Positions 20,248-40,133 of a stretch of 64,000 bases of DNA are shown here, piece after piece; within the stretch, counting starts at the first letter, position 1; each line of letters begins with the position of its first letter. Both the position numbers and the translations under genes were made by a program. A model generated the notes under the pieces. That model saw nothing but the letters and a program-made list of their open reading frames with translations. It was not told where the DNA came from and did not search any database. The DNA is from an uncultured Bacteroidales bacterium. GTDB taxonomy: Bacteria > Bacteroidota > Bacteroidia > Bacteroidales > Bacteroidaceae. Location: NCBI GenBank assembly GCA_902798685.1, contig CADBXO010000014.1, positions 30,051 to 94,050 of the forward strand, written 5' to 3'.

Positions 20248-22455
20248 TTAACCGATATCCTGCAAATTATACGGAGTTTCCTGATAAACGTAGTAATTGA
20301 GCCAATTTGCGTAGAACAGATTGGCATGTGCACGCCAGCGGTCTTTAGGTCCCTTGGCAGGATCATCATCCTTATAATAGTGCCTGGGCATCTCAATGGG
20401 GAGTCCCTTGGCAAGGTCGCGTTTGTACTCATTGTCAAGGGTATACGGGGAATACTCCATATGCCCTGTTATGAATATCTCCCTACCCCCGCGGGCCGAT
20501 ACCATAAAGACGCCGGCCTCATCGGACTCTGACAGGAGTTTGAGTTCGGGATGTTTCAGGATATCCTCCCTGCGTACCTCCGAATGACGGCTGTGCGGGG
20601 CATAGAACTCATCGTCAAAGCCACGGAAAATAGGCAGCGGCTCATCAATTGTGGTATGCTTGAATATGCCGAACTTCTTTTCAGGCAGCGGGTACTTGGG
20701 CACGCCATAGAAATGGTACATTGCAGCCTGTGCGGCCCAGCATATATATAAGGTCGATGTCACATGGGTGCGTGCCCAGTCAAAAATCTCCTTGAGCTCA
20801 TCCCAGTAAGAAACCTCCTCAAACTCCATCTGCTCCAGCGGGGCACCGGTCACAATGAATCCGTCAAACTTCTGGTCACGCATGCTCTCAAAGGTCTCGT
20901 AGAATACCTTCATATGCTCTACAGGGGTATTTTTGGAGGTGTGACTGCGCAGTTTCATCAGCTTGAGCTCAATCTGAAGGGGTGTGTTGGAGAGCAGACG
21001 TATCAGGTCTGTCTCTGTGGTAATCTTGATGGGCATCAGGTTGAGCACCACAATTCGCAGCGGACGGATGTCCTGACTGGTGGCGCGGCTGGTATCCATG
21101 ACAAAGATATTCTCCCCTTTGAGAATCTCTATCGCAGGCAGTTTATCGGGTAATTTAAGAGGCATAACCGGACTGATTATTATAAAACCGAAATATCCAC
21201 AGCCCCAATCAAGGGACTGTGAAACACCGATTGAAAGACGTACCGTTGTGGGAGTTATGTGCTGCTCGGCCAGCTCCTTTGAAGTCATCTGAGAGTGTGT
21301 GGTGGTGTAAGGATGTATAACAAGGCTCTTTACATCGGCCACGTTGGCCAGCAGTGAGAAAATCTGCAGTGAGTCAATGAACTTCCAGGTATCCTCCTGA
21401 GTGCCGTTAATCTCAAATGTGAAGATTGAACCGCCACCGTTCGGGAAATACTTCTTGTAGAGTTCATGATCGGGATGACCGGGCAGTGAAGGATGGTTAA
21501 CCTTGGCAACCTTGGGGTTCTTAGCCAGATAGTCAACTACCTTGAGTGCGTTCTCAACGTGACGCTCTATGCGCAGAGGCAGTGACTCGACACCCTGCAG
21601 CAGGATCCAAGCGTTGAAGGGGCTGATGGCAGCACCGGTATCACGCAGGATGACGGCGCGGATACGGGTTACGAATGCGGCTGCACCGGCTACATCGGCA
21701 AATACTGCACCGTGGTATGAGGGATCGGGCTTGGCAAGTGTGGGATACTTGTCGGGGTTGGCCTTCCAGTTGAATGAACCGCCGTCAACGATAACGCCAC
21801 CCAGTGATGAACCGTGACCGCCGATGAACTTGGTTGCAGAGTGTACAACGATGTCGGCACCGTGCTCCAGCGGACGGATAAGTATGGGAGCGAATGTGTT
21901 ATCCACGATAAATACTATTCCATGCTTGTGAGCGATCTCTGCTACAGCCTCCAGGTTGGTAACGTCACTGTTGGGGTTACCGAATGTCTCGGCGTAGATT
22001 GCCTTGGTGTTGGGGCGGATGGCTGCCTCAAGAGCCTCCAGGTCATTCACCTTAACGATGGTGTTGCTCACGCCCTGGGTTGAAAGTGTGTGTGTTATCA
22101 GGTTGAATGAACCGCCGTACAGGTTGTCGGCTGCCACGATGTGGTCACCGGCCTGAGCAATATTCTGCAGGGCGTATGTTACTGCGGCTGCACCCGATGC
22201 AACTGCCAGACCGGCTACACCACCCTCAAGAGCGGCAATGCGCTTCTCAAGTACATCCTGTGTGGAGTTGGTCAGACGGCCGTAGATATTACCTGCATCA
22301 CGCAGACCAAAACGGTCAGCAGCATGCTGTGAGTTACGGAACACATAAGATGTGGTCTGATAAATAGGCACTGCGCGTGCGTCTGAAGCGGGATCGGCCT
22401 GTTCCTGGCCTACATGGAGTGCAAGTGTCTCAAGATGGAATTTGTTGTTTGCCAT
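20248..22455 (-). CDS. metYA: MetY-MetA fusion: O-acetylhomoserine sulfhydrylase plus homoserine O-acyltransferase
   Basis: One frame of 735 residues holds two methionine enzymes. Residues 1-410 are MetY, which makes homocysteine from O-acetylhomoserine and sulfide; PLP-lysine 209 lies in [13 protein letters not shown]. From residue 431 ([15 protein letters not shown]) comes MetA, which acylates homoserine, with acyl-enzyme Cys in [14 protein letters not shown] and the His-Glu pair in GHMEYS. The specificity position reads APLEQMEF: Glu here marks acetyl-CoA users (Gly in succinyl-CoA enzymes), so MetA should make the very substrate that MetY uses. The last 20 residues before MetA do not match a normal MetY end. 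The start at 22455 lies just after a good promoter; the open frame upstream of it is promoter DNA. Confidence 0.9.
21198..21221 (-). other. Hairpin inside the metY-metA junction
   Basis: CACAGTCCC and GGGGCTGTG (minus strand) form a nine-pair stem with one G-T pair and the loop TTGATT, followed by a T-rich stretch. It lies within the coding junction and looks like a former terminator or an attenuation stem. Confidence 0.5.
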
Positions 22456-22502
22456 AGTTGTATGTTTTTTATTGTTATTTCGTTTTTGTTCTTTTGACGA
22501 TG

Positions 22503-22534
22503 CAAAGTTACGGCTGTTAGAAAATTCTACCAAA
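22503..22534 (-). promoter_or_regulatory. Promoter of metY-metA
   Basis: On the minus strand TTTG (22531-22534) is followed after 20 bases by TAACTTTG (22503-22510), matching both consensus boxes. The expected start site lies about 40 bases before the metY ATG. Confidence 0.8.
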
Positions 22535-22538
22535 CATA

Positions 22539-22570
22539 TTGTGTTATTAAAGAAAAACAAACTACCTTTG
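22539..22570 (+). promoter_or_regulatory. Promoter of the Lrp-type regulator
   Basis: TTG (22539-22541), a 21-base spacer and TACCTTTG (22563-22570) fit the Bacteroidota promoter. It overlaps the divergent metY-metA promoter region closely, so binding of the regulator here could affect both. Confidence 0.7.
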
Positions 22571-22613
22571 TCCAAAATCAAAGAAAATAAACCAACAAAA
22601 TCAACTATAAACT

Positions 22614-24629: not shown

Positions 24630-24665
24630 ATTCTCTATTATTAAATGGTTATATACGTAATAAAA

Positions 24666-24695
24666 GCATATCAGTCACTTTCGTGACCGATATGC
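24666..24695 (-). terminator. Hairpin ending the export operon
   Basis: GCATATC and GTCAC pair with GTGAC and GATATGC around TTTC, with one mismatch. On the minus strand it is followed by TTTTATTA. It also falls at the 5' end of the predicted pepD transcript. Confidence 0.65.
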
Positions 24696-24696
24696 C

Positions 24697-24732: not shown

Positions 24733-25449
24733 TTATCCAAGGAATTTGCCTCTGTTCTGAAGGCCGAGCAATCCCGACATAAGGAAGATTATTGCCGCGA
24801 CTGCCATTGCGATGCGGTTCTTGAGCAGCGTAAGGCTCCAGATTGCAGCGTTGATGTTCTCGGGTTCCTCATACGGATTGATGGTTACATCCCATACCTT
24901 GTTCTCAACGAGCGGAATATTGCCCAGGATCATAGCCAGTATCACCGTAAGTACGGATAGTACAGCAGCGGCGTTTCCGTTGCGGATAAGGGTTGAGTAC
25001 AGGAATGCCAGGTTACCGAACAGTGTGACAGGGAGCATAAGCTGCCCTGCCATTGTGAACGGCGATACCGGATACAGCAGAATTCTGGCCAGGAAGGCAT
25101 ATACCACCAGGATCAGATATACCTCAACGTATATCATCACCAGGCGGAACAGCCATACCTTATACATGTAGTTGGGTATACCGAACAGAAGTTCCAGAAT
25201 TCGGTGATCGGCATCATTCTGAATTCCGAAGCATGAGGGATAGAACACCAGAAGAAGACCCGGTATGATAAGCTGACTGTATACCATACCGTGACTCAGC
25301 GACGTACCACGTGCTGCTGCGGTATACATAAGGAAGAAGAACAGGACCAGGCCCACCAGCAGGAACCAGATGAACTTGCCGGCAAAAATGATCCTCATAT
25401 TGTAACCGCACAACTTGGCGAATGATTTTGTTGTCTGTAATACTGACAT
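24733..25449 (-). CDS. ABC-2 type permease of the hybrid export system
   Basis: The 238-residue protein has six hydrophobic segments and no other domain, as in ABC-2 permeases. Segments include FIWFLLVGLVLFFFLMYTAA, LIIPGLLLVFYPSCFGI and a final MAVAAIIFLMSGLLGL. The coupling-type region QNDADHRILELLFGIPNY lies after the second membrane segment. It is the last gene of the minus-strand operon and starts 12 bases after the RND-ABC fusion. It is probably one of two membrane partners for the two ATPases of the locus. The substrate is unknown. Confidence 0.85.
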   Translation of the reverse strand: MSVLQTTKSFAKLCGYNMRIIFAGKFIWFLLVGLVLFFFLMYTAAARGTSLSHGMVYSQLIIPGLLLVFYPSCFGIQNDADHRILELLFGIPNYMYKVWLFRLVMIYVEVYLILVVYAFLARILLYPVSPFTMAGQLMLPVTLFGNLAFLYSTLIRNGNAAAVLSVLTVILAMILGNIPLVENKVWDVTINPYEEPENINAAIWSLTLLKNRIAMAVAAIIFLMSGLLGLQNRGKFLG

Positions 25450-25461
25450 TGGTCAACTTCT

Positions 25462-28400
25462 TTAAAGGTTCTTCAATAAGCACAGGTATGCATCCTCAAG
25501 GTTGGGCTCGGCAAGTTCGGCACCCGGCCACGGGCATTCAGGTGAAATGTAACGCACCTTGATCTTACCTCCGTCCTGAATGTGGTTGGCAATGAGTTTC
25601 TCGTCAAGTTCTCCCAGACGTGATGCCTCAATGTCAAACATCCAAACCTTGTCCTTGGCCAGCTTAACCATGTCGCCCGGTTCTCCAAAGTACTTGAGTG
25701 AACCCTTCTCAATGACTACAACCTGGTTACATGAGCTTGCAATATCCTCAATGATATGGGTTGAGAATATCACGATACGGTCACGGCTAAGCTCTACCAG
25801 CAGGTTACGGAAGCGTATACGCTCACGCGGGTCAAGTCCGGCGGTAGGCTCATCGACCACAAGGATACGCGGCAGGTTGAGCAGGATAAGCGCAATACCT
25901 ATTCGCTGCTTCATACCGCCTGAGAACGATCCTATCTCAGAGTTGCGCTGCTCATACATATGGACCGATGTGAGCACATACTCAAGTCTCTCATTACGGA
26001 CCTTCTCATCGGTAATACCCTTGAGGATGGCCTGATAGTTCAGAAAATCCCATGCGCTCATGGACTCGTACATGCCGAATTCCTGAGGCAGGAAGCCGAT
26101 AAGACTCTGCAGCTCCTCCCTGTACTTGAGCGTATCCATACCGTTGATGAATACCGTACCATAGCTCTGACGCAGGATACCGGTTACAATACGCATGAAC
26201 GTGGACTTACCGGCTCCGTTCGGACCCAGAAGGCCGAACATACCGCTATGAATCTCAAACGTCACACCACGCAGTGCCTTGAACGGTTTCTTGCGCTTGC
26301 CGATGATAGGAATGCTCTTTACGAACACGAACCATGCACGTCTCATGCCGGCTGTCTCGCCCTTGAGACGCTCCACGTTTATATTGTTCTCATAGAGATA
26401 ATCGGCAGTCTTGCTGATGCAAAGACCCAGAATCCATACGACGGCAATGAATACCATGAATCCCTTGCTCTCAATGCGGGTACTCAGGAATATCATGGCG
26501 AATATGGGCAGAGCCCAATAGAGGATTCTCCTTATTATCTTAACTGCCTTCGCCCCACTCTTGAACTTGTAGCCGATATACTCAAGGATTGCCTTGATGA
26601 TATTGTTTACGCCTGCAAGTGTGACGATGGTCATAAGCAGAATCCATCCCTGCTTCTCAAAATACCATCCGGCCAGATATGCGGTGTAACCGAATACCAC
26701 AACCTGCCACAGCAGACCCACAAAGTCCTTTGCATGATGGTAAGTGCGTGCCAGTCCGAGACGGCGGCGTATGTTGAGTCCGCTACGCCACTGACGCAGG
26801 AACAGGCTGTACCAGTCATACACCTTAACCAGGTTACGTACCTCAATGACGATGGGCTCATCTGGCTTGACAATATCCTTGCGGGCAATCCTGACTGAAC
26901 TCTTTATGAAGTATGTAACTCCGGGTATTGCGACTGCAAGCACCAGGATGTAAATGAGAATACGGAATATTCCGCGGGTGGTGGTAAAGATCAGAATCAG
27001 GCCCACTGCAAAGAGTATGACATGCAGGATATGGGTGTATCGGCCCAGATTCTTATACCATGCCCTCATGTTCTCAAACGATATGTAGAGCGTAGGAATG
27101 AGCAGAAGCGTCAGTACGGCCGAGAATGTAAGACCGCCAATCACAGTCAGAGCGAACGGTGCACCGATGGCGCCTGCATACTCATTGTCACCCATTGCCA
27201 TCGGGATAAGCGTGACAATTGTGGTGATTGTGGTGATACAGATAGGCCTGAGTCGTGAGTAGCCGCTGTTCATGATTGACCTCATACGGTTATAGCCCCT
27301 GCGACGCAGTGTCGACGAGTAGTCTATAAGTATGATACCGTTGTTGACCACTATACCCAGAAGGATCAGGAATCCGGTAAGGGTATTTGCATTCATCAGG
27401 CTGTTGCCCGACAGAAGCAGTGCCAAAAGTGAGCCGATGGCAGCCAGCGGTATTGAGAACAGCAGTACCAAAGGTGTTGTGAGTGACTCAAAAGCCGATG
27501 CCAATATCATGAATATGAGTATGATAGAGGCCAGAATCAGGAACTTGAACTCACTGGTGGAGTCATCACCGCGCTGTACCTCAAGAGCCAGTCCTGAAGG
27601 CAGGTTGTAGTTGGCAATCAGGTCATCAATCTGGTCATGATAACCGTCAAGCACATCCTTAGGCAGATCCTCGCTCTGAGAGATGGCGTAAGTCACATTG
27701 ACGCGACGGTCACGGTTTACACGCCTTACCTCCGACGGGCCGCGGCTGAGACGGATATTGGCCAACTGCTGGAGCTCATGGGTTCCGCCGTTTGCATCGG
27801 TCACGGTTAAGCGTCGCAGATCATCCAGGGTTTTCTCCCATGCCCTCATCTCCTCCTCTTCCTCAGTGAGGTCCTCCATGATGACAATGTCATACTCATC
27901 GGTACCTACCTTAAAGCTGGCACCGGTACTGGTGGAGCGGTTCATTGAGTTCAGGGCCGATGTAATGGCCTGGCTGGTGATATTGTACGATGCAAGAGCC
28001 ACCGGATCAAAGGTAAGCTGTACCTCACGGCGGCCGCCCGGGTTGTCAACCCTGACATCACGTACAAACTCCAACTGCTCCAGATAGTATCTGAGGTTGT
28101 TGGAGACGATACGCATGGTCTCAGTGTCGGAACCCTTGACAACTATACGCTCGGTATTGTCGCCCACACCCAGCACGCTCATAAAGCGTGTAACCGAATT
28201 CAGGCCCGATGCATTCTGGTTGTAGCGGGCATATCCGGGTGTCACACGGACATCAATCTCGTTCTCAAGAGTCAGTTCATCACTCAACTGTTCAACCAAC
28301 TGACTGATGGTAGGACCACCCTTCTTGTTGTAACCCTCCTGAAGGGTGACAGTGATGGATGCCTGCTCCTCCTGGATACGGCTTATGACATCCTTCTTGT

Positions 28401-30159
28401 ACTTGAGGCTGTCCAGACGTTTCTCAAGAGTGGCGGTTGCCTCGTCAGTATCGTCAAGCGTACTTCCGGTAGGCATGGTGATGTTCACACTGATTCGGTC
28501 ACTGTCCACCTGACGGTTCTGACCCGTATTGCGGGACAGAGCGAATATGAAGGCAATGACAAGAACGGCCACCGCCGATCCTATAGTGGGACCCGGCTTG
28601 CGCAGACAGGTCTTAAGTACCGTCGAATACATCTGCAGCGGACGGTCATGTATGGACATCTTCTGGAAGAAGACGTTGTTGCCTCCGCCTCCACGCTCCA
28701 TCATCGCTGCTGTAGCCATAGGTATGAACGTGACAGCCACCAGAAGCGAGAAAATCAGCGTTGAAATGATTGAGAAGCCGATATTCTTACCCAAGAGCTT
28801 GATCATCGGCTCATCAGAGAATACGAACGGAAGAAATACCGTAATGGTGGTAAGCGTTGAGGCGATAAGGGCCTTACGCACCTCCTTGACACCCTGCAGG
28901 GCCGCCAGCCTGGGCGGCATACCCATAGATGCCAGACGGTAGATGTTCTCCAACACCACTATACTGCTGTCCAACAGCATACCTATGGCCAGCGCCATTC
29001 CCAGAAGGGTCAGTGTGTTGATGGATATATTAGCAGCATAGAATACGTTGAAGGCCGATAATATCGAAACCGGGATGGAGAGTGCGATAAAGAACACCAG
29101 ACTCAGGTTGCGCAGGAAGAACCAGAGCACCAGAATGGCCAGGAGTCCTCCCATCAGACCCAGTTTGACTATCTGTGATATGTTGTTGCTTATCTGGTCG
29201 GCCGAGTTGGACTGAACCACAAGCTGCATATCCTGACTGGCTATCTCACGGTTAACCTCGTCAATGCGCTTAAGTGTTCTTTGGGAGAGGCTCAAAAGGT
29301 TCTCACCTGTGCTGTTCACCAGTGAAACGGATATGGCGTCCATACCGTTTACACGGCTTATGGTAGTCTCCTCCTTATAGTCGAAGAATACCGTTGCCAC
29401 ATTCTTAAGATATATCGGTCCCGGTGCAACAACCAGATTCTCAACCTGTGACACATCATCATAGTTTGCGTCAAGCTGCACGTAATACTTCATGTCAGGC
29501 TCGCTGATAAAACCCAGGAATGTACGTTCCTGGTTATATTGGCTCAATGCCTGACTTATCTGTGAGTTGGATATATTCAATGCCTGCATGGCCTCGGTGT
29601 TGGAACGTATCTCGATTGACTTGACACGTCCGCCGTACACCGTTACGCCGGCAATACCGTCAATGCTCTCCAGACGGGGCACCACATCCTTGTCCACGAT
29701 GGCTCTCAGGCGGTCAACACCTCCTGATCCGCGCACCTGAAGTGACATGAACTGGTTGCTTACGCCTGTAAGGTTGGCCTGCTGGACATTGACGTTTACA
29801 TCGGACGGAAAATCGCCCCTGATGGAACTGATCTTCTCCTGCAGCTTCACGGTGGTCATCTTCAGGTTGGTACCTCTCTTGAAGTCCACCCTTATGGAGC
29901 CCTGTCTGCCGGATACTGTCGATTCCATGTTCTCGACACCACCCACGGCGCTGATGGCTCCCTCAAGCGGAATCACCACCTGCTGCTCCATGTATGAGGG
30001 ACTGATGTCACTCCTGGAGTTGGCAGTAATGTAAAGCTGGGGAAGTTCAGTATTGGGCAGCAACTCAACAGGCAACTGCTTGTATGAGAAGTAGCCCAGC
30101 AGCGTCATAGCCACCAGAAGCATGCATATAGTTACTCTTCTGTCAATAAATGACTTCAT
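25462..30159 (-). CDS. RND permease fused to an ABC ATPase with a membrane insertion in the ATPase fold
   Basis: Residues 1-1030 form a complete RND permease: 12 membrane segments, two periplasmic loops, TM4 motif IGMLLDSSIVVLEN and TM10 motif GIVVNNGIILID. Two further membrane segments (1041-1085) lead to IVIEVRNLVKVYDW (1103-1116), which matches the first strand and adenine-contacting Tyr of an ABC ATPase. About 180 residues with some four membrane segments (1145-1250) intervene before KPFKALRGVTFEIHSG and the Walker A GPNGAGKST (1312-1320). Q-loop LPQE, signature FSGGMKQR (1412-1419), Walker B ILVVDEPTAGLD and switch FSTH are intact. The product of 1565 residues would join a proton-driven and an ATP-driven pump. 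The start overlaps the preceding RND gene by one base (TAATG). Confidence 0.9.
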   Translation of the reverse strand: MKSFIDRRVTICMLLVAMTLLGYFSYKQLPVELLPNTELPQLYITANSRSDISPSYMEQQVVIPLEGAISAVGGVENMESTVSGRQGSIRVDFKRGTNLKMTTVKLQEKISSIRGDFPSDVNVNVQQANLTGVSNQFMSLQVRGSGGVDRLRAIVDKDVVPRLESIDGIAGVTVYGGRVKSIEIRSNTEAMQALNISNSQISQALSQYNQERTFLGFISEPDMKYYVQLDANYDDVSQVENLVVAPGPIYLKNVATVFFDYKEETTISRVNGMDAISVSLVNSTGENLLSLSQRTLKRIDEVNREIASQDMQLVVQSNSADQISNNISQIVKLGLMGGLLAILVLWFFLRNLSLVFFIALSIPVSILSAFNVFYAANISINTLTLLGMALAIGMLLDSSIVVLENIYRLASMGMPPRLAALQGVKEVRKALIASTLTTITVFLPFVFSDEPMIKLLGKNIGFSIISTLIFSLLVAVTFIPMATAAMMERGGGGNNVFFQKMSIHDRPLQMYSTVLKTCLRKPGPTIGSAVAVLVIAFIFALSRNTGQNRQVDSDRISVNITMPTGSTLDDTDEATATLEKRLDSLKYKKDVISRIQEEQASITVTLQEGYNKKGGPTISQLVEQLSDELTLENEIDVRVTPGYARYNQNASGLNSVTRFMSVLGVGDNTERIVVKGSDTETMRIVSNNLRYYLEQLEFVRDVRVDNPGGRREVQLTFDPVALASYNITSQAITSALNSMNRSTSTGASFKVGTDEYDIVIMEDLTEEEEEMRAWEKTLDDLRRLTVTDANGGTHELQQLANIRLSRGPSEVRRVNRDRRVNVTYAISQSEDLPKDVLDGYHDQIDDLIANYNLPSGLALEVQRGDDSTSEFKFLILASIILIFMILASAFESLTTPLVLLFSIPLAAIGSLLALLLSGNSLMNANTLTGFLILLGIVVNNGIILIDYSSTLRRRGYNRMRSIMNSGYSRLRPICITTITTIVTLIPMAMGDNEYAGAIGAPFALTVIGGLTFSAVLTLLLIPTLYISFENMRAWYKNLGRYTHILHVILFAVGLILIFTTTRGIFRILIYILVLAVAIPGVTYFIKSSVRIARKDIVKPDEPIVIEVRNLVKVYDWYSLFLRQWRSGLNIRRRLGLARTYHHAKDFVGLLWQVVVFGYTAYLAGWYFEKQGWILLMTIVTLAGVNNIIKAILEYIGYKFKSGAKAVKIIRRILYWALPIFAMIFLSTRIESKGFMVFIAVVWILGLCISKTADYLYENNINVERLKGETAGMRRAWFVFVKSIPIIGKRKKPFKALRGVTFEIHSGMFGLLGPNGAGKSTFMRIVTGILRQSYGTVFINGMDTLKYREELQSLIGFLPQEFGMYESMSAWDFLNYQAILKGITDEKVRNERLEYVLTSVHMYEQRNSEIGSFSGGMKQRIGIALILLNLPRILVVDEPTAGLDPRERIRFRNLLVELSRDRIVIFSTHIIEDIASSCNQVVVIEKGSLKYFGEPGDMVKLAKDKVWMFDIEASRLGELDEKLIANHIQDGGKIKVRYISPECPWPGAELAEPNLEDAYLCLLKNL

Positions 30160-33100
30160 TACTTTCCAGTGATTCTTATTTTGGCGCTTTCAAATACATA
30201 ATAAACACACGGTATCACCACGAGACTCAAGAGAGTTGAAGTGACCAGACCGCCTATCACGGCAATAGCCATGGGTGAACTCAGCGATGCGCCGTCTCCC
30301 AGTCCCAATGCCATAGGCACAAGTGCCAGGATTGTGGTAAGGCTTGTCATGAGGATAGGACGGATACGCTGCTGGCCTGCCTCGGCAATGGCGTCGACAA
30401 GGCTCAGACCGGACTCCTTAAGCTGTCCTATACGGTCTACAAGTATGATTGAGTTGTTGACCGCGATACCGGCCAGCATCACCATACCTATGATACCCAT
30501 AATATTGACTGTAATGCCTGTTGCAAGGAACATCAGTACTGCGCCCACCAGAGCCAGAGGAATGGTGAGCAGGATGGTGAACGGATGCAGCAGTGACTCG
30601 AACTGTGATGCCATTACCATATATACCAGTACTATTGAGAGCAGCAGTGCCAGCAGAAGGCTGTTCATGGATTCTGCGCGGCGCTCCTCCTCACCGGTTA
30701 CGGTGATTGAGTAGTTCTGAGGCAGCTCGATACCGGATACAGCCTCTCTTGTACGCTGTGCAGCCTTGTCAAGCGATACAGACTCGTCAATATCGGCAGT
30801 GACGCGTGTCACACGGTTCTGATTGAGACGGTAGATCTCCTTAGGAGCAGTGCTCTCTGTAATTCTGGCAAGCTCCACAAGGCGGAAATCCTTCTGGCCC
30901 GATGTGATAACCATATTGTTCAGATCGGCCAGTGATATTCCGGGCACCTTGATGCTGATATCTCTCATGTCACCCTTGTAGTCCATCTGTCCGGCTTCAC
31001 GTCCGGCAAGATGCTGCTGAATCTGGGTGATGATGGTTGATACGTTGATGTTGTTCATACCGGCCATGGCGCGGTCAACCGTGATGATGATCTCAGGTGC
31101 GCCGCCTGCCAGCGAGCTCTCTACATTATAGAGGCAGTCAATGGAATCAACCGCAGCCTTAACCTGATTGGTCAGTGCCGACAGCAGATCCAGGTCCTCA
31201 CCCTTTATCTCCACAACCAGCGGAGCATCCTCGGTACCCATCATTGAGTTCAGGGAGTTCTCATCCTGAGTGAATGAGAGTTCCATACCCTCCACTCCGG
31301 CTACATATGATGAAAGTACCTCAGTAAGGTCATCGGGACTTAAAACCGATGCCTTTGAAAGCTGAATCTTCATTGATGCGGTGTTCTCACCCTCAAAATC
31401 CATATTCTGGGCCGATGCGCCCGGACCTACGTGAGTGTAGATGACGCACTCGGGATCCTCGGTCAGGTCAAACACCAGGTTCTCAAGACTCTCAACTGTA
31501 GATGATGTACGCTCCAGGCTTGTACCCTCGCCCATTCTAACCTTAACGTTAATGGTACTTGCATCGGCCTTGGGCATGAACTCGGTACCTACATACGGCA
31601 GCAGGAACACCGTTCCGGCAACCAGAATGACAGAACCTAATATAACCCACCAGCGTTTCTCCACAAGACGTTTCAGGAATGAGCTGTAACCCTTGATGTT
31701 CACGGAACTGAAGTTCTTGAGAGGCACAGCCTTCTTGCGACCGAATATCTTGTCATAGAGTGTAGGAATCACCAGGATAGCCACAAAGAGTGATGAAACC
31801 AGTGAGAACGTAACTGTCCAGGCCTCATCCTTGAAGAGTTCACCTGTTGCTCCGTGCAGATATACGATAGGCAGGAACACCACGATGGTTGTAAGGGTTG
31901 ATGCCGATACGGCACCGGCCACCTCGGATGTACCGGTTATTGAAGCGTCGCGCACCGAAAGCCCACGCTCCTGATTTCGGAATATGCTCTCGATAACCAC
32001 AATGGCGTTATCCACAAGCATACCCGCACCCAGCGCAAGACCTCCCAACGTAAGGATGTTTATGGTCAGTCCGCTGAAGAACATCAGGTTGAATGTAGCG
32101 ATGATGGAGACAGGGATTGAAATGGCCACGATAAGTGTGGTACCCATCCTGCGCAGGAACACGAACAGAACGATAATAGCCAGAATTACACCCATTATGG
32201 CGCTGTTCTTGACCTCACCGATGGAACTGTTAATGAATGTAGCCTGGTCACTGATAACCTTTACTTCATATCCTGGCAGTGACTTCTGTATCTTGGCAAG
32301 GCTTGTCTTGACTCCCTCTACCGCCTTGACGGTATTGTAGTCCATCTCCTTGAACACAGAGATACCTATGCTTCGCTTTCCGTTCACACGTACTATGTTC
32401 TCAGGATCACGGTTCTCAAAGCGTATGGTGGCCACATCACGCAGATAAATAGGTGCCATGCTGGCCGATTCAAACTCGCCCACTCTGGCCTGGCTTGTCT
32501 CGGTGTTGCGGTAACCTACTATGATGTTGCCGAATGCGGTCTCATCAGTCAGGGTATTTGAACCTGTAACAAGATACTGGAAACCCTGTTCGGTGATACG
32601 GCCGCCTGATACTCTCTGGTTACTCTCCTGAATACGTGACGAAATGTTGTCAACGGTTATGTTGAAAGCCTTCAGTTTGTAGGGATCGGCATCAATGACC
32701 AGGTTGGTGAACTCATCACCGGCCAGTGATACATCGGCCACGCCCTCCACTCTCATCAGCTCATTGCACACGTATGAGTCAGCCACCTTGCGCAGCTCGG
32801 CCATATCGGTTATGTCCGGGTTGGAGAAACCTATGATCATGATAGGCGCGGTAGTAGGATCCTTCTGGGATATTCTCAGGTCAGTCACACGGCTGTCCTG
32901 TGAGAAACTGCTCATGGCCTTCTCCAGATCCAGGAACGCCTCATCCATATTCTTGCGCCATGCGTACTCGACAGTAATGCGGGCAGTACCCACCTTTACG
33001 ACCGATGAGACCGAACGCACGTCACTCTGACGGGCAATCTGAGACTCCATGCTGCGCACGAACTGCTTCTCAATCTCTTCTGGCGGACGCTCGCCGGCGT

Positions 33101-33251
33101 CAATTTCGACAAACAGGCGCGGGCTGTTCATGCTTGGAAGAAGCTCCACGCTCAGCCTGTCATATGATATTTTTCCGAGCAGCAGAATAGCCAGCACCGC
33201 CATCGTGACAGTGACCGGTTTCCTGACCGCCCAACTTACAAGTTTTTTCAT
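30159..33251 (-). CDS. RND efflux permease (HAE-1-like, inner membrane)
   Basis: This 1030-residue protein has the classic RND layout: TM1, a large periplasmic loop, TM2-7, a second loop and TM8-12. The TM4 motif is GAGMLVDNAIVVIES and the TM10 motif GIAVNNSIILVD. It would drive export with the proton or sodium gradient, taking substrate from the periplasm or inner membrane through the adaptor and TolC protein encoded just upstream. A second RND permease follows in the operon, so a heteromeric pump of the MdtBC kind is possible. It starts 14 bases after the adaptor gene. The substrate cannot be read from the sequence. Confidence 0.95.
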   Translation of the reverse strand: MKKLVSWAVRKPVTVTMAVLAILLLGKISYDRLSVELLPSMNSPRLFVEIDAGERPPEEIEKQFVRSMESQIARQSDVRSVSSVVKVGTARITVEYAWRKNMDEAFLDLEKAMSSFSQDSRVTDLRISQKDPTTAPIMIIGFSNPDITDMAELRKVADSYVCNELMRVEGVADVSLAGDEFTNLVIDADPYKLKAFNITVDNISSRIQESNQRVSGGRITEQGFQYLVTGSNTLTDETAFGNIIVGYRNTETSQARVGEFESASMAPIYLRDVATIRFENRDPENIVRVNGKRSIGISVFKEMDYNTVKAVEGVKTSLAKIQKSLPGYEVKVISDQATFINSSIGEVKNSAIMGVILAIIVLFVFLRRMGTTLIVAISIPVSIIATFNLMFFSGLTINILTLGGLALGAGMLVDNAIVVIESIFRNQERGLSVRDASITGTSEVAGAVSASTLTTIVVFLPIVYLHGATGELFKDEAWTVTFSLVSSLFVAILVIPTLYDKIFGRKKAVPLKNFSSVNIKGYSSFLKRLVEKRWWVILGSVILVAGTVFLLPYVGTEFMPKADASTINVKVRMGEGTSLERTSSTVESLENLVFDLTEDPECVIYTHVGPGASAQNMDFEGENTASMKIQLSKASVLSPDDLTEVLSSYVAGVEGMELSFTQDENSLNSMMGTEDAPLVVEIKGEDLDLLSALTNQVKAAVDSIDCLYNVESSLAGGAPEIIITVDRAMAGMNNINVSTIITQIQQHLAGREAGQMDYKGDMRDISIKVPGISLADLNNMVITSGQKDFRLVELARITESTAPKEIYRLNQNRVTRVTADIDESVSLDKAAQRTREAVSGIELPQNYSITVTGEEERRAESMNSLLLALLLSIVLVYMVMASQFESLLHPFTILLTIPLALVGAVLMFLATGITVNIMGIIGMVMLAGIAVNNSIILVDRIGQLKESGLSLVDAIAEAGQQRIRPILMTSLTTILALVPMALGLGDGASLSSPMAIAVIGGLVTSTLLSLVVIPCVYYVFESAKIRITGK

Positions 33252-33265
33252 CCTTTACGCTCTGT

Positions 33266-34336
33266 TTATCTTTGGATCTTCACCTTTGAACCGTCTCTCA
33301 GGGTCTCAAAACCACGGATGATCAGCTGATCGTCTCTTTCCAGACCGCTCAGCACCTCTACCTGGTTCTTCTCCTCAAGACCCAGTCTTACCTGCTTGGC
33401 GCGGGCAATACCCTGGTCAACTACGAATACGATACGTCTGTTGCGCTCGTTACGTACAATGTTCTTGGGGATAATGATGGTTGAGCTGTGACTCTCGGTA
33501 ACGATATCGGCCTTTACGAACATACCCGGACGGATAAGCATCTTATTGTTGTCAATCATGAGCTTGCCCTTGAATGTACGGGTCTCGGAACTGATAGCCG
33601 GTGAAAGCTCGGTGATCTCACCCATGATGGTGTCCTTGGGGAGTGTATAATGGGTAATATAAGCCTTCTGGCCTACCTTAACCTCATTGATGGCGCTCTC
33701 CGGGAGGTTGATCTCAAGCAGCATCTGGCTGTAATCCATAATGGTTACGACCGATGTACCGCTGTTAACCTTTGCCTCCTCCGAGAAGTGCGGCAGGTTT
33801 ACTATCACGCCGTCAAAGGGAGCGCGTATGTTCATCTTCTCCAGATTCATCTCGGCGTTCTCATAATCCAGACGTGAGTTCATGATCTTAACCTCTGAGT
33901 TCTTTACCTCGGTCAGAGTGGCACCGCCCTTGTCATAGAGAGACTTGGTCTTGACCTGCTCCTGCTCGGCAAGCTCCAGATTCAGACGCTTGGTTTCGAT
34001 GGATATGCCGTTCTCATAAGACTTATCCTCGATACGTACTATCAGGGCGCCCTTCTTTACCTTGTCACCCAGTTTGTAAGGTTTGCCTGTAGCGGGATTC
34101 TTCTGCAGATGGTACTTGCCGGCCATCTCGGTCGACAGTTCAGCCTCGGCACTTGAGATTGCAGTGCTGTTGGTGGTGAATACCCTGCTGATAGAGCCAT
34201 AGGTAATGTCCGATACTGATACCGGAGTCGGTATCTCGGCACGGTTCATTGTGTTCTCTTGTCTGCACCCTGCCATAAGTACGGTCAGTGCAGCCAGTGT
34301 AAGTACGCTGATTCCTGATTTCATATGCTGTTTCAT
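33266..34336 (-). CDS. RND periplasmic adaptor lipoprotein (membrane fusion protein)
   Basis: The 356-residue product has a lipoprotein signal ending LMAGC (Cys24). It then shows the adaptor order: beta-barrel and lipoyl halves (GDKVKKGALIVRIED and MNIRAPFDGVIVNLP), a short alpha-hairpin (about 105-155), and C-terminal barrel and membrane-proximal parts (IRPGMFVKADIV, EVLSGLERDDQLIIRG). Such adaptors connect an RND pump to a TolC channel. Only one adaptor gene serves two RND permeases and two ABC permeases, which suggests a shared duct. It starts five bases after the TolC gene. Confidence 0.95.
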   Translation of the reverse strand: MKQHMKSGISVLTLAALTVLMAGCRQENTMNRAEIPTPVSVSDITYGSISRVFTTNSTAISSAEAELSTEMAGKYHLQKNPATGKPYKLGDKVKKGALIVRIEDKSYENGISIETKRLNLELAEQEQVKTKSLYDKGGATLTEVKNSEVKIMNSRLDYENAEMNLEKMNIRAPFDGVIVNLPHFSEEAKVNSGTSVVTIMDYSQMLLEINLPESAINEVKVGQKAYITHYTLPKDTIMGEITELSPAISSETRTFKGKLMIDNNKMLIRPGMFVKADIVTESHSSTIIIPKNIVRNERNRRIVFVVDQGIARAKQVRLGLEEKNQVEVLSGLERDDQLIIRGFETLRDGSKVKIQR

Positions 34337-34341
34337 TTTTG

Positions 34342-35847
34342 TTATTTCTTTTTCTTGTTGGAACTCTCCTCATAGGTTATGGGAACCACAGGCTCATCCT
34401 TCTCAAAATCGTAAAGGGTCAGGATCTTGATGTTCAGAAGCTGAACCTTATAGTTGATGATAGCCTGAGTGTATGACATCTTGCTGTTTGACAGCTGGGT
34501 CTGGAACTGGTTCATCTGCATACCGGTAAGCTCACCGTTGCGGTAACGCTCCTCATTGAGCTCATAGGTGAGCTGTGCGTTCTGCTGGCTCTGCTCTGCT
34601 ATTGAAATCTGCTCGAGCAGGTTGTTCAGACTGCGGCATGTGCTGCGTACGTTGATCTCTATGCTCTTGAGTTCCTCCTCTGCACTGAGCTCAAACATCT
34701 TTCTCTCAATCTCGGCAGCCTTGATACGTGCCTTACGGGCACCCCAATCAAAGATAGGTACGCTGAATGAGACTGATACGCGCGGGTTGTTTGTGGGATT
34801 GTCATAGACGTGCGGGAACTGCGGGTCATCACCCATGACACCTACTGACAGTGAGATATTACCGCTGAAACTGTCATTGTCCTTGACCTGAATCATCGAC
34901 ATCTCCTGCTGTTCTCTCTGAATCTGACGCTGACGGAGCTCAAGCCTGGTTGTAGTGGCACTCTCCAGAGCCTTCTCGAAATCAACGAATACGGGATCGG
35001 CCTCGATATCGCAAACCACAATGATATCCTCCTCCAGAGGAATTCCCAGTGCCTGTTTGAAGTTGTCCTTTGAATTCTCAAGGCTCACCTTCTGGTTCTC
35101 CAGACTGGAACGTGACTGAGCCAGGTTAACCTGTGCCTGGTAGTACTCATCCTTTGTTACAAGGTCAGCCTCTACCTTATCCTTGATGATATTGAAGTTC
35201 TTCTCGGCATTCTCAAGTTCTGATTCGCTGATCTCCAGGTTCTGCTGGGCAGTGAACAGGCTGTAGAACTGACTTGTGATGTTACGCTCCACGTTGAGCA
35301 GCTGCAGTGCATAGCTTATGCGGGCGTTCTCATAGTTCATCTCAATCTGACGCAGGTTCATCTTGGTCCTGTTGTAGGTAAAGATAGGCTGGGTCAGACT
35401 CAGATACAGGCTGTTGCTGAAGCCTTTGTTGCTGTTGGTAGTACCGCCTACTGATGACCGGTTGTTCTGCCACGACAGGTTGTTGTTGAGTGACAGCGTA
35501 GCATCGGTCCAGATAATGGGCTGAGAGATGCTGAAAGTACCTGACGACGACAGCGAACGGTTGGTGTACCAGTCTGAGAATCGGTTGTCAAACTGACGCG
35601 ACTGCGAGTATGAGATGGGCTGCAGATTAAGTGAGAACCTTGATTTCAATGATGCCTTCTGGGCTATCAGGTTCTGCTCATAACGCTCCATGCTCATTCG
35701 TGAGTTAATCAGGTCAGGATTGTGCTGTTCGCTGTACTCCAGAGCCTGTTCCATGGTCATGACAATCTGCGCCTGCGCCCCGCTCTCAAAAGCAGGTACA
35801 GCCGCTAACATCAGGACTGCCGTAAAAAATGCTTTTTTCTTTTTCAT
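34342..35847 (-). CDS. TolC-family outer membrane efflux protein
   Basis: The 501-residue product begins with a signal peptide (cleavage near AQA-Q) and consists mainly of two long heptad-rich helical repeats with short beta segments, the TolC pattern. Repeat landmarks are MEQALEYSEQHNPDLINSRM and, in the second half, FSVPIFDWGARKARIKAAE. TolC proteins are trimeric channels through the outer membrane and periplasm. It is encoded between the ABC permease and the adaptor gene, so this locus carries its own exit channel. The C-terminus ends in a lysine run. Confidence 0.93.
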   Translation of the reverse strand: MKKKKAFFTAVLMLAAVPAFESGAQAQIVMTMEQALEYSEQHNPDLINSRMSMERYEQNLIAQKASLKSRFSLNLQPISYSQSRQFDNRFSDWYTNRSLSSSGTFSISQPIIWTDATLSLNNNLSWQNNRSSVGGTTNSNKGFSNSLYLSLTQPIFTYNRTKMNLRQIEMNYENARISYALQLLNVERNITSQFYSLFTAQQNLEISESELENAEKNFNIIKDKVEADLVTKDEYYQAQVNLAQSRSSLENQKVSLENSKDNFKQALGIPLEEDIIVVCDIEADPVFVDFEKALESATTTRLELRQRQIQREQQEMSMIQVKDNDSFSGNISLSVGVMGDDPQFPHVYDNPTNNPRVSVSFSVPIFDWGARKARIKAAEIERKMFELSAEEELKSIEINVRSTCRSLNNLLEQISIAEQSQQNAQLTYELNEERYRNGELTGMQMNQFQTQLSNSKMSYTQAIINYKVQLLNIKILTLYDFEKDEPVVPITYEESSNKKKK

Positions 35848-35865: not shown

Positions 35866-38800
35866 TTATCTCTCTCTTTTTACCAGTCTCACTGCATCGG
35901 CCACAACCACGCTCACGCCTGACTTGTTGTTGAGACGTATGTTGACGGTGTCAGCCTCGAACCTGAACGTTCCGAGCATGTTCCAGCCCTCATCGGCACG
36001 GCGCATGTTCAGTGAAACGGGATCCCACATGTCGAACTGTCCTATCTCGAAGTTGTAGTCAGTGGGTGTCCATCGGCCGTTATTGTTATTATTGAAATTG
36101 TTATTGTTGTTCCACCTGCGGTTACGGTTATTGTTGTTGTAAAGAGACGGTGAAGCATAGAAATAGACGTCATAGACGCCGGCCTCAGTCAATGGCACCT
36201 TCCAGCGGGCAAACTGTGAGCCGTCACCCGGGCTGATGATATAGGCCGAGCGGATATAGTCACCGTACAGGGACTGCTCAGTAACCAATGTCCACAGGGC
36301 GTATAGTCTCCAGTCAGAGAAGCCCTCGTAAGCGAACTCATTCTTTTTCTCACGTGACTTGTCTATCCATTTGGAGAGATATCCGGTACGTATAGGTTTG
36401 GAAAGTGAGAACAGACGGCTGTCCTCATTATCCACAATAATCTCACCTGCAAGAGTGTTGTCCACACCGCTGCGCAGCGTATAGACGCCCTCGGGAGTGA
36501 GCTCGGTGCCGGTATATGTGCTCCAGTTGGAATTATCCAGTCTTACTACATGAGGCAGGTTTGATGAGAGCATGGTATTCACGGCTATCTCACTCGGGGT
36601 ATTGAACCAGTGGGTCACTACCCTGCGTGTCTCATGTGCGCCAACGCTTACCATCATCCTCCTGGGCTTGTCCTCATCACCGGCATTCTCCATCTCATAG
36701 AACACATACTCCAGGGTAACATAGCCGGGATAGTCCGATATGTTCTCAAACGCGATCTCAGCTTGGTAGATATCGGCCGTATCGGTGGTGACCGTAGTCA
36801 TCTGGGGATTGCCTATCTTGTAGCAGGCCAGACGTACGGGCTCGTCCCATCCGTCTATCTTCTCCTTGAGGCTGACACCCGAAATCTCCTGCAGCCAGAT
36901 CAGTACCGAGTCAAACGAAACGTTTGAGAACTCCTTCTCCCTGGTCTTGGCGGTAATGGAGTCAATCATGGCCTCATAACCGATTGCGGCCGATACGGGA
37001 GCAAAGAAATCATTTGTCTTGAGTGCCAGGGCATTGTCGGCAAGGTCCTCCCACTCCGGATCTGACATGATGCGGTTGAAGTCATATTTGCCCATCAGGA
37101 TAAGGGCCTTCTCATCTTCAGAGAGACCGTTCATTCTACGGATCCAGTCTCCGTTACCGTTGTTGTCTCTGGTGTTGGTCACGGACTCAACCATACGCTT
37201 GGCCATCGGCCAGTCAGATGAATAGATGTTGTATCTGAAGTTGTAGAACAGAGGCATGTAGTAGTACGGATTTTCAGTCTGGGTCATGGTGAACTGTCCG
37301 TTTCGGCTGCTGCCCGAGTAAGTGCCCGACTGCATCATGAAGTTGATGGCCGATACAAACACGCTCACAAGTATATCCTTCTCTGACATGTTGGTGGTTC
37401 CACCGCGGCGGCCACGGCCGTTTCCGTACATACGCATCATGTTCTCGAACTGGAACGACCGCATGTCACAGCCTCTCTCATGTACCAGAGCCATCTCAGG
37501 CTGAAGCTGCTCATAGGCTGTTGTCCACACACGTTTGTATGAAGTGAAATTGACAGGCACCTCCACAATCTGGAAGCGCTTGAACGGATAGAGCATATCT
37601 GCCTGATACTCCATGGTGCGGCGTGTGTCGCGGATAAAGTTGGGAAGGGTGTCGATTATGGAGTCAAACACCGCGAACTGGTCATCCCACTCGCCAAGTT
37701 CCCATACTATATAATCTATGGAGTCTACAGTCATGGACTTGGGCCTGTAATCACCTATTAAAAGTGATACTGACGGCAGTGACGATTCAGGTGTGAATGT
37801 ATACTGTGTCGAATCAGCGTTAACCTGGCACTCTCCCTGTGATATGGGTCTGAGTCCGGGATTGGGAGTTACGCTGAGATTGAAATCAGTAAAGTATGAC
37901 ATCTCCCACTCCGGGTTCTCGTTGCTGAACGCAACACCGGGACGCGGATACCAGTAACTCTCGGGAGTGAGCATGGTGAAATCCTTCTGCTGGAAGAGAT
38001 AACGCTTGCCTACGTTGAGCATTGAGAGCACCTTGCTGTTCTCAATCATCTTCTCATCAGTAATATCCAGATAGCAGATGCGCTCATCGGCCATACCGCC
38101 ATATTCCATGGTCAGTTTTACAGGCTCGTCGGCAGGCAGGGTCTCCTTGAAAGTGAGCACTATCAGATGCATCTGACGCTCGAACTCCATATCATGTCCT
38201 GGGGCACTGATGTTACTGATCTCAAAACCCGGATTGAGCGTGAAGACCATAGTCTTGCCGTCCTCCCTGGGCCTTACGGTCATATCGGCTTTCACATAGA
38301 TGGAATCACCCCTCTGGGTTACTGACAGCAGGCATGAGTCAGCTACTGCGCCTCCCTGATTGACATATCTGTTATCCAGCGCAATCATATCGGCCCTGAA
38401 ACCCTCATCCATCTTGTAGAGATGAATATGCCTGTAACCGGCATAGAGACCGGCCAGCAGGAACACTCCTGCGGCAATACGCCACGGCAGCAGGCTGTAT
38501 CTGGAGTTGGCCAGACGGTGGAACAGTGATATATCAGTAAGTATGAGTCCTATGCCCAGCAGCAGATAGCACAAACGGTGGTTTATCAGTCTGGGCAATC
38601 CGCTGAAGCCTGTCACCACGGACTTGAGCATGGGTAGGTTGAAACCTATATAATCAAAAAGGTAATAGTAGAGGTCATCAATGTAGAACAGCGTCACGCC
38701 GATGTAAGCCAGCAGCAGGACCATCGTGATGGCCTGGTTGTTGAGAATCAGCATCAGTGTTGTTGACAGACCTACTATGAATACCAGCGTAGGCACTGAC

Positions 38801-39255
38801 AGCAGCAGGAAATACCATATGTAACTAAGGTAATCCAATGCGAAACCGTACTTGATAAGGCTCATTATCAGCGCTATGGCAGCAACTGCAAAATCGAGCA
38901 GGAAAAAGACCTTCAATGTAGCCCACATCTTGCCCAGCAGATACTCCGCGTTACTCAGCGGACGGGTGTAGAACACCTCGGAGGTATCAAGCTGCTTGTC
39001 ACGTTTAAGGTACTCTGATGCAAGGAATACCGATACCACAGCCTGCCCCACATTCATTACAAGCATGAATATGTAGGGAATGACTGACCTGTTAACCACC
39101 TGAGGCTGCGGATACTGTGTAAGTATGTAATTGACTCCAAGTATCAGACCGGCAAAAAGGGCCAGAAAGGCAAAAACCTTGAAGAACCAGCCTCGTACGA
39201 GCAGTTTTGTCTCGTACTTTGAAACTATGCGTATGTTAGTTATTCCCAGCATCAA
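35866..39255 (-). CDS. ABC permease with large M1-peptidase-like and golvesin-like periplasmic domains
   Basis: The first 275 residues hold about seven membrane segments and resemble ABC-2 permeases (YFL-type loop EYLKRDKQLDTSEVFYTRPL). Residues about 310-810 look like a gluzincin aminopeptidase scaffold (YWYPRPGVAFSNENPEWEM) but the zinc motif HExxH is absent; the matching region reads TAYEQLQPEMALVHERGCDM. A Gly/Arg loop (GNGRGRRGG, 611-619) interrupts it. The C-terminal 130 residues, ending VVVADAVRLVKRER, resemble a golvesin/xanthan-lyase beta domain and contain an Asn-rich loop at 1040-1059. Similar ABC permease-M1 hybrids exist in Bacteroidota, usually described only as permease or M1 family proteins. 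It overlaps the ATPase gene by four bases. Confidence 0.82.
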   Translation of the reverse strand: MMLGITNIRIVSKYETKLLVRGWFFKVFAFLALFAGLILGVNYILTQYPQPQVVNRSVIPYIFMLVMNVGQAVVSVFLASEYLKRDKQLDTSEVFYTRPLSNAEYLLGKMWATLKVFFLLDFAVAAIALIMSLIKYGFALDYLSYIWYFLLLSVPTLVFIVGLSTTLMLILNNQAITMVLLLAYIGVTLFYIDDLYYYLFDYIGFNLPMLKSVVTGFSGLPRLINHRLCYLLLGIGLILTDISLFHRLANSRYSLLPWRIAAGVFLLAGLYAGYRHIHLYKMDEGFRADMIALDNRYVNQGGAVADSCLLSVTQRGDSIYVKADMTVRPREDGKTMVFTLNPGFEISNISAPGHDMEFERQMHLIVLTFKETLPADEPVKLTMEYGGMADERICYLDITDEKMIENSKVLSMLNVGKRYLFQQKDFTMLTPESYWYPRPGVAFSNENPEWEMSYFTDFNLSVTPNPGLRPISQGECQVNADSTQYTFTPESSLPSVSLLIGDYRPKSMTVDSIDYIVWELGEWDDQFAVFDSIIDTLPNFIRDTRRTMEYQADMLYPFKRFQIVEVPVNFTSYKRVWTTAYEQLQPEMALVHERGCDMRSFQFENMMRMYGNGRGRRGGTTNMSEKDILVSVFVSAINFMMQSGTYSGSSRNGQFTMTQTENPYYYMPLFYNFRYNIYSSDWPMAKRMVESVTNTRDNNGNGDWIRRMNGLSEDEKALILMGKYDFNRIMSDPEWEDLADNALALKTNDFFAPVSAAIGYEAMIDSITAKTREKEFSNVSFDSVLIWLQEISGVSLKEKIDGWDEPVRLACYKIGNPQMTTVTTDTADIYQAEIAFENISDYPGYVTLEYVFYEMENAGDEDKPRRMMVSVGAHETRRVVTHWFNTPSEIAVNTMLSSNLPHVVRLDNSNWSTYTGTELTPEGVYTLRSGVDNTLAGEIIVDNEDSRLFSLSKPIRTGYLSKWIDKSREKKNEFAYEGFSDWRLYALWTLVTEQSLYGDYIRSAYIISPGDGSQFARWKVPLTEAGVYDVYFYASPSLYNNNNRNRRWNNNNNFNNNNNGRWTPTDYNFEIGQFDMWDPVSLNMRRADEGWNMLGTFRFEADTVNIRLNNKSGVSVVVADAVRLVKRER

Positions 39256-40133
39256 TCCTTATCCTTAATCTCCGTAAAATAAACATATGCATGCTCCAGG
39301 TTTGGAGGATAGTTCACTGCGCCGTATCCGGGGTTCTCCTTGGATACAACCTGCAGATCCCATCCCAAGCCATGCGGTATGGTTGAAATCACTGCGTATT
39401 TCTGATTTATCTCAGCATACTGTTCGTTGGTAACCTGAAGACGCCAAACCTTGCCATTGGTCTCACCCAGCATACCGGCAGGGGATCCGCGGAACATGAC
39501 CTGCCCCTGGTTGAGCATGGCCATCTCGGTACATGAACTTGAAATGTCACCCACTATATGGGTTGACAGTATGATTGTGGTATCCTTTGAACTTGCCTCG
39601 CTCAGAAGATTACGGAATCTGATACGCTCCTCGGGGTCAAGACCGGTTGTAGGCTCATCGACCACCAGAACCTTGGGCTTGTGTATGAGGGCCTGGGCAA
39701 TACCCAGACGTCTCTTCATACCACCCGACAGATTCTGTGCATATCGGTCACGGGCCTCATAGAGACCAACCTGCTCCAGCATCTCGTCTACTGCCTTGCC
39801 GCGCTGTGACGAATTGGTCATACCCGTAAGGGCGGCAGCATAATCCAAAAACTCACGAACCTTATACTTGGCAAAAAACCTGAAATCCTGAGGCAGATAA
39901 CCCAGTATGCGGCGCACCTCCTTGCGTTGTGTGCGTATATCATAGCCGCATACGTCAATCTGCCCTTCGGTAGGTTCCATCAGGGTTACCAGGATACGCA
40001 TCAGCGTGGACTTTCCGGCACCGTTAGGTCCCAGAAGTCCAAACATCCCTGATGGTATCTCCAGGTTGATATCGGTCAGCGCTCTCTTCCCGTTGGGATA
40101 GTAGTGGCTTAACCCTTTAATACTTATCGACAT
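39252..40133 (-). CDS. ABC transporter ATP-binding protein of the export locus
   Basis: The 293-residue ATPase has Walker A GPNGAGKST (near residue 38), Q-loop LPQD, signature LSGGMKRRLGIAQ, Walker B VLVVDEPTTGLD and switch STH. The stretch SGMFGLLGPNGAGKST, the segment DPEERIRFRNLL and the C-terminal pattern PNLEHAY recur in nearly the same form in the fused ATPase at the end of the RND-ABC protein, so the two are paralogues and could dimerise. The gene overlaps the permease start by four bases. It begins 36 bases after the GH9 stop with no obvious promoter between. Confidence 0.93.
   Translation of the reverse strand: MSISIKGLSHYYPNGKRALTDINLEIPSGMFGLLGPNGAGKSTLMRILVTLMEPTEGQIDVCGYDIRTQRKEVRRILGYLPQDFRFFAKYKVREFLDYAAALTGMTNSSQRGKAVDEMLEQVGLYEARDRYAQNLSGGMKRRLGIAQALIHKPKVLVVDEPTTGLDPEERIRFRNLLSEASSKDTTIILSTHIVGDISSSCTEMAMLNQGQVMFRGSPAGMLGETNGKVWRLQVTNEQYAEINQKYAVISTIPHGLGWDLQVVSKENPGYGAVNYPPNLEHAYVYFTEIKDKD

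Follow-up and report, generated by a model that had tools for sequence, protein, structure and literature searches.

Organization of the locus

The window, a 64,000-nucleotide stretch of contig CADBXO010000014.1 from an uncultured Bacteroidales bacterium, carries on its minus strand a tight operon of seven genes in the order NBD1, TMD1, OMF, MFP, RND1, fusion and TMD2 (Table 1). The sixth of these is a single open frame of 1565 codons and a stop, starting with the ATG at 30159 and running to 25462 without an internal stop; the strand had been left unstated in the original prediction. In the sequence TAATG the stop codon of RND1 and the start codon of the fusion share one base.

Table 1. Features of the fusion gene and its operon in the window
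Feature	Residues	Position	Strand	Basis
NBD1, stand-alone ABC ATPase, paralogue of the fused one (42% identity)		39252..40133	-	Pfam, sequence comparison
TMD1, ABC-2-like permease with M1-peptidase-like and golvesin C-terminal parts		35866..39255	-	Pfam on 15 rows
OMF, outer membrane efflux protein, TolC-like		34342..35847	-	Pfam OEP
Periplasmic adaptor (HlyD/CusB-like MFP)		33266..34336	-	Pfam
RND1, second RND permease		30159..33251	-	Pfam ACR_tran
RND permease-ABC ATPase fusion gene, 1565 aa (coordinates include stop)	1-1565	25462..30159	-	Open frame, Pfam ACR_tran and ABC_tran, same frame in relatives
RND permease domain	1-1030	27070..30159	-	Pfam PF00873 at 2-1028; best solved relative by phmmer MdtB 9lyq
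Linker with two extra membrane helices	1031-1100	26860..27069	-	Two hydropathy segments in 33/34 rows
Displaced first ABC strand with A-loop Tyr1114	1105-1114	26818..26847	-	Profile test 65/65; strand in model
Insertion between ABC strands 1 and 2, 174 residues	1117-1290	26290..26811	-	Four helices at 1143-1257
ABC ATPase core, strand 2 to C terminus	1291-1565	25465..26289	-	Pfam PF00005; fold match 4yer, 1vpl
Walker A, GPNGAGKST	1312-1320	26200..26226	-	Motif
Signature, FSGGMKQR	1412-1419	25903..25926	-	Motif
Walker B and D-loop, ILVVDEPTAGLDP	1432-1444	25828..25866	-	Motif
Switch His, STHII	1466-1470	25750..25764	-	Motif
TMD2, small ABC-2-like permease, 238 aa, co-occurring partner		24733..25449	-	ABC2_membrane_3 in 6/38 rows
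Terminator-like hairpin after TMD2, possible operon end		24665..24696	-	14-pair stem; consensus match only

In Pfam the fusion matches ACR_tran over its full length, residues 2–1028 corresponding to profile positions 3–1020 of 1021 (E 2.9e-166), and ABC_tran at residues 1296–1440 (E 2.3e-24), with no domain found between these two. The open frame and the two Pfam matches bear out the prediction of a full RND permease and an ABC ATPase in one chain. The closest solved relative of the fused RND part is E. coli MdtB (9lyq, E 1.1e-68 by phmmer). For the fused nucleotide binding domain (NBD), the Foldseek matches listed are NBDs, with E 1.6e-21 for 4yer and a TM-score by target length of 0.82 for 1vpl, a fold comparison that says nothing on strand 1; by phmmer against the PDB the ABCA transporters are best, and 4yer and 1vpl are the best single-domain entries. 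A comparison with a viral library placed ABC transporters on top and P-loop or unrelated proteins below, and was uninformative. All 65 aligned fusions, the window included, have Walker A (residue 1312), the Q-loop (1356), the signature (1412), Walker B (1432) and the switch His (1466) in intact form, in agreement with the motifs first read from the window, and the A-loop Tyr1114 is kept in 34/34 rows of the fusion.

The motifs of NBD1 are likewise intact (32/32). TMD1 was compared with Pfam in 15 rows, giving ABC2_membrane_2 in 9, Peptidase_M1 in 5 and Golvesin_C in all 15, the last being the sole match of the window copy; the combination of an ABC-2 permease, an M1-peptidase-like region and a golvesin domain in TMD1 orthologues is a seemingly unusual load for an ABC permease. 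The ABC2_membrane_3 matches of TMD2 are weak (6/38 rows, best 1.4e-4), the window copy has no Pfam match, and a TMD2 profile found no relative among solved structures (best E 0.12). The order TMD1-OMF-MFP-RND1-fusion-TMD2 on one strand is found in 33/33 divergent loci, and NBD1 heads the operon in 32 of them, while in the remaining one (L152) the contig ends inside TMD1. At the level of genes, an adaptor, an OMF and two adjacent RND permeases are thus present in all 33. The minus strand also carries a gene with GH9 cellulase and CelD_N domains at 40170–42800, upstream of NBD1 and separated from it by 36 bases.

A probable displaced first strand of the ATPase

From motif likeness, the original prediction had taken IVIEVRNLVKVYDW, at residues 1103–1116, for the first strand of the ABC fold, and its position is as given there. 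In the 33 divergent loci (42–61% identity) this segment has the consensus I-x-[IVL]-x-[NK]-[LVI]-V-K-[IV]-Y and is followed, after an insertion of 107–223 residues, by [FY][KR]A[LV] and then by a second strand leading into GLLGPNGAGK. The same two pieces occur in unfused relatives with only a few residues between them, as in ISIRNLNKVYPNGNHALKDVNLEI (L159).

A strand-1 profile of 10 columns was built from 61 unfused ABC ATPases only. When applied to the fusions, it ranked residues 1105–1114, or their equivalent, first among all segments scored in 65 of 65; these 65 rows are kin, and some genomes stand in both collections (L071 and L134 have identical scores). Within the window protein the segment scored 14.7 bits and the runner-up 2.7. 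In 1000 shuffles of the same protein the 99% level was 12.95 and the best score 15.83 bits, and since a shuffle exceeded the real score the window by itself is not decisive; the weight lies on the first rank, at a fixed position, in 65/65. Lys1112 and Tyr1114 are invariant in 34/34 rows (the window and the 33 divergent loci), and residues 1100–1116 show 71% identity to the window in eight divergent rows.

A structure model of residues 1031–1565 made from 33 rows was poor (pLDDT 66, pTM 0.34) and was set aside. An AlphaFold2 model of residues 1095–1565 was then obtained with 109 more divergent rows, in which the unfused sequences were trimmed to start at strand 2 and so gave no direct hint of strand 1, although the ABC fold as such may be familiar to the network. 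This model reached a pLDDT of 91.4 and a pTM of 0.78, and has residues 1105–1114 as a strand (mean pLDDT 96), a helix at 1119–1133 directly after it, four more helices in 1143–1257, and the second strand at 1293–1303. No other strand of the model comes before residue 1293, and the partner of strand 1 must therefore be within the ATPase; its exact partner there is something we infer from the model. The unfused profile, the two invariant residues and the modelled strand together support the prediction, and residues 1103–1116 are best read as the displaced first ABC strand, which would pair inside the ATPase fold.

Linker and insertion helices

Between strand 1 and the Walker A core the window has 174 residues with four membrane segments in a hydropathy scan, close to the separation of about 180 residues and some four helices first noted. 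Over 34 rows the scan gives four segments in 23, three in 9, two in 1 and one in 1. Two natural fusions of family f78 (L156 and L158) have an insertion of 107 residues with two or one hydropathy segments, and represent a minimal form. The same scan shows two membrane segments in residues 1031–1100 of the window, which had gone unmentioned before. In AcrB the RND C terminus is cytosolic; if this holds here, helix counts of two and four place both strand 1 and the ATPase core in the cytosol.

The four insertion helices are the least conserved part, with 30% identity to the window in the eight divergent rows compared with 82% for residues 1291–1500, and the linker is 45% identical. The residues around the helices include several that are near-invariant, namely R1122, W1151 and P1284 (each 34/34) and W1124 and G1127 (each 31/34). 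An insertion profile (A2) found no relative among solved structures, with matches at chance level only (best E 0.26), and Pfam on 11 insertion rows gave scattered weak matches, the best to EcsB (0.0087, in 1/11), which were taken as chance. The helices may be a mere anchor, since they are variable, number four in only 23 of the 34 rows, and are contained in 107 residues in L156 and L158.

Distribution of the fusion

A scan of genome_contigs with exact window peptides as query, which reaches close kin only, found 35 loci in MAGs of Bacteroidaceae, Bacteroidales or Prevotellaceae, mostly from animal guts. The whole fusion lies in one frame in 31 of these, at 48–98% identity; among the other four, L040 and L058 are cut by the contig and L066 and L073 have broken frames. 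In the last two the fusion frame is in two or three pieces.

Searching the family with residues 1031–1565 gave a full-length match in one frame of 1568–1594 aa in 14/201 genomes, and one further match at a contig end (G004). Nine of the 12 genomes of the window's own genus have the fusion, its own genome included, and its own assembly holds a single copy. A profile of strand 1 and the insertion matched 53 of 393 genomes of the order, of which 52 are genuine and spread over 23 families; 44 matches are in frames of 1515–1640 aa, and eight are in shorter frames whose N-terminal side runs into the end of the contig. The one spurious match, G328, has an E-value of 9.3e-4 and stops within. At the level of the phylum, 6/395 genomes carry the fusion over the whole tail (E <1e-190, frames of 1561–1640 aa), and two of these, G703 and G930, lie beyond the window's class. 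In all 102 of the 395 genomes pass E 1e-50, the 96 non-fusion ones through the ATPase part. A 1432-aa frame in G929 (L202) was considered as a second fusion and rejected, as Pfam finds an ABC domain only and there is a separate start motif for the ATPase; this is an ordinary unfused ATPase, a relative of NBD1, preceded by an open frame without any domain.

The ratio dN/dS, determined for six pairs, is 0–0.17 in every segment, linker and insertion included; the values are rough since dS exceeds 1 in several pairs. An artefact of assembly or a frameshift might join two neighbouring genes, and the broken frames of L066 and L073 show that frame errors or decay do occur in this family of MAGs. Such an origin is effectively refuted by conservation, as the whole frame is present in 31 of 35 contigs and in 44 of the 53 order genomes with a match, and dN/dS across the junction does not exceed 0.17. 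The frame recurs in relatives and in genomes of the order and the phylum, and the fusion is thus a conserved gene of gut bacteria and no assembly accident. Within the window's own phylum, to which the searches were confined, other RND-ABC fusions were found with the insertion kept, and the joining of RND and ABC in one chain is conserved over two classes within a conserved operon. A literature search, largely without subscription papers, had no RND-ABC fusion among the matches listed, which does not prove absence; one match to the phrase 'fused to an RND' concerns Snf7.

TMD2 is present in exactly the genomes that bear the fusion, 6/395 in the phylum and 52/393 in the order, as judged with a profile built from fusion-bearing loci only, by which a very distant TMD2 elsewhere could be missed. 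The two genes share a contig in 51 of the 52 order genomes, the exception being G297, where they are on two contigs; G525 has a partial TMD2 match at a contig start. This strict co-occurrence points to an ABC permease as the partner of the fused NBD. Distance correlations are 0.54–0.91 for all pairs of components and no pair stands out, the NBD1-NBD2 contact included.

Origin of the fusion

In a tree of 100 NBDs the 39 fused domains form one clade and the 29 NBD1s of the operons another, each with support of 100/100, and the two clades join at 91/79, a node that carries a long-branch warning. The tree fits a duplicated ATPase pair and a single fusion event before these families parted. An RND2 profile was applied to 198 genomes, with up to four candidates scored per genome. 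Four fusions reached 1504–1591 bits, and no unfused RND exceeded 573; with this gap in scores an unfused intermediate is not seen, and no split version of the fusion was found in the 198 genomes.

These results bear on a rival view, that the fusion is only an assembly tether, by which the genes of two independent transporters were joined for stoichiometry or location without any functional relay. In favour of a tether, conservation is lowest in the linker and in the helices of the insertion, and the gene order, with RND1 and the fusion overlapping by one base, already holds the parts together. On the other side, a neutral link would probably have been lost at such divergence, no split version is seen in the 198 genomes, and there are invariant residues in the flanks of the insertion; we therefore consider a pure tether rather improbable.

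Residues of the RND ion relay

In PMC12802153, Asp407, Asp408 and Lys938 are described as required for proton translocation and as conserved in both MdtF and MdtB. Compared with MdtB, the fused RND keeps the first Asp of TM4 (D397, 34/34), while the second is Ser in the window and, over the 34 rows, Asn in 28, Thr in 3, Ser in 2 and Cys in 1; the Lys site of TM10 is Asn (N939, 34/34). The fused RND consequently lacks the full proton relay, which comprises two Asp in TM4 and a Lys in TM10. RND1, aligned by motif, shows Asn in place of the second Asp in 34/34 rows and either Asn (32 rows) or Ser (2 rows) in place of the Lys. Two further RNDs of the window's genome, L003 and L004, retain the Lys, and L006 has Asp-Asn in a 1013-aa frame without an ATPase.

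An RND powered or gated by ATP could account for these replacements, in that the NBD would drive or gate the RND trimer through the extra helices and supplement a weakened proton relay. That the second Asp and the Lys are replaced in both permeases of the operon and the Lys is kept in L003 and L004 is in its favour. The Asp-Asn of L006 occurs without any ATPase, however, D397, D946 and R971 are invariant in the fused RND (34/34), so that a changed ion relay is possible, and the occurrence of TMD2 with every fusion suggests that the NBD has its partner in an ABC permease. We take ATP drive or gating of the RND to be unlikely; the residue changes may leave an ATP-assisted RND open, yet by themselves they are no sign of ATP coupling.

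Comparison with known transporters

As in MdtABC and MuxABC (HAE-1 RND), two RND permease genes stand beside an adaptor, and MdtB is the nearest solved relative; unlike MdtB the fused RND is without the second Asp and the Lys of the relay, and the operon has OMF and ABC genes of its own. MdtBC is not known to include an ABC ATPase. For the E. coli RND pair an MdtB2C heterotrimer is reported as the active form in PMC12802153, and heterotrimers are also named in PMC8277102.

The channel-type (type V) ABC exporters WzmWzt and TarGH resemble the fusion in carrying an additional element where strand 1 leads over to strand 2, next to the A-loop Tyr. According to PMC6379404, the gate helix of Wzt arises from an extended connection of these two NBD strands. 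The element is a cytosolic gate helix in these exporters, whereas in the fusions it is the long insertion with membrane helices and the NBD is joined to an RND permease. The modelled helix at residues 1119–1133 is at this site, but four more helices come after it. The genes expected of a type V exporter, two NBDs and two ABC-2-like permeases, are present in the operon, with ABC-2 model matches in 9/15 TMD1 rows and weak ones in 6/38 TMD2 rows. The best NCBIfam ABC models for the fused NBD, and the top two for NBD1, are GldA (TIGR03522) and DrrA (TIGR01188), with scores far below the cut-offs (173 vs 402.6 bits for GldA and 166.5 vs 312.45 for DrrA); in contrast to the fusion, ATPases of the GldA/DrrA type are without RND and without insertion. 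MacB is similar as an ABC exporter with an adaptor and a TolC channel; according to PMC8386196 it is itself the inner-membrane pump and has four TM helices, whereas here RND permeases take that place.

A possible hybrid export machine

RND and ABC exporters are textbook opposites in their source of energy, and whether inner-membrane exporters pass substrate on to tripartite pumps is an open question. That a chain with both appeared mechanistically surprising in the original prediction is fair. The partner permease TMD2 and the second ATPase, which were not part of that prediction, however suggest that an ABC exporter works alongside the pump more than they suggest an RND driven by ATP. NBD1, the fused NBD, TMD1 and TMD2 would be enough for one heterodimeric ABC exporter, and the two RND permeases with the adaptor and the outer membrane channel would be enough for one two-RND tripartite pump. 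We propose a hybrid export machine, in which the ABC exporter is tethered to the pump and the two work as a relay, a reading to which we give about even chances.

In such a machine residues 1–1030 of the fusion would sit in the RND trimer, and the fused NBD, anchored to the membrane through the two helices of the linker and those of the insertion, would drive TMD2 together with NBD1 and TMD1. An amphiphilic or lipid-like substrate would be carried across the inner membrane, or extracted from it, by the ABC half, and the half made of RND, adaptor and channel would then send it out of the cell. The resemblance to the ABCA, GldA and Wzt types leads to the guess that the substrate may be an amphiphile or a lipid-linked compound. 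The insertion takes the place that the gate helix has in Wzt, and its conserved flanks (R1122, W1124, G1127, P1284 and G1287) might touch the permease and the entry site. The fusion, its conservation, the signal and model for strand 1, the operon and the joint occurrence with TMD2 are observed, and the NBD heterodimer, the relay or coupling, the class of substrate and the role as a gate are what we infer. A bolder reading is a new class of transporter, in which a single chain would couple ATP hydrolysis by the split ABC ATPase, embedded in the membrane, to an RND trimer; the resulting dual-energy ABC-RND supercomplex, using ATP and an ion gradient, would span both membranes and export its substrate in one committed pass, which we regard as possible but somewhat doubtful.

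ABC modules act as sensors elsewhere, and BceAB-type sensing offers a comparison. The fused NBD and TMD2 might by analogy form a sensor or loading device, an ABC module that controls the pump and does not transport, and the conserved C-terminal extension of the NBD at residues 1501–1565 (59% identity to the window in the eight divergent rows) could serve such a function. All seven genes of the window operon are typed as transport parts, however, and the catalytic motifs are complete in both NBDs, making a sensor very improbable.

For the hybrid export machine, RND and ABC are covalently tied over two classes, with the same partner permease in every genome in which a fusion was found, and owing to this tie and the constant partner the question of a relay is directly testable on a single purified complex. 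The fusions further suggest that the connection of ABC strands 1 and 2, known to hold one gate helix, can accommodate an entire membrane domain while the motifs of the ATPase are kept.

The window has a second composite frame, located at 20248–22581 on the minus strand, of 777 aa. It joins a PLP enzyme of Cys/Met metabolism (residues 51–455) to a homoserine O-succinyltransferase (474–771), and thus has two enzymes of methionine synthesis in a single chain.
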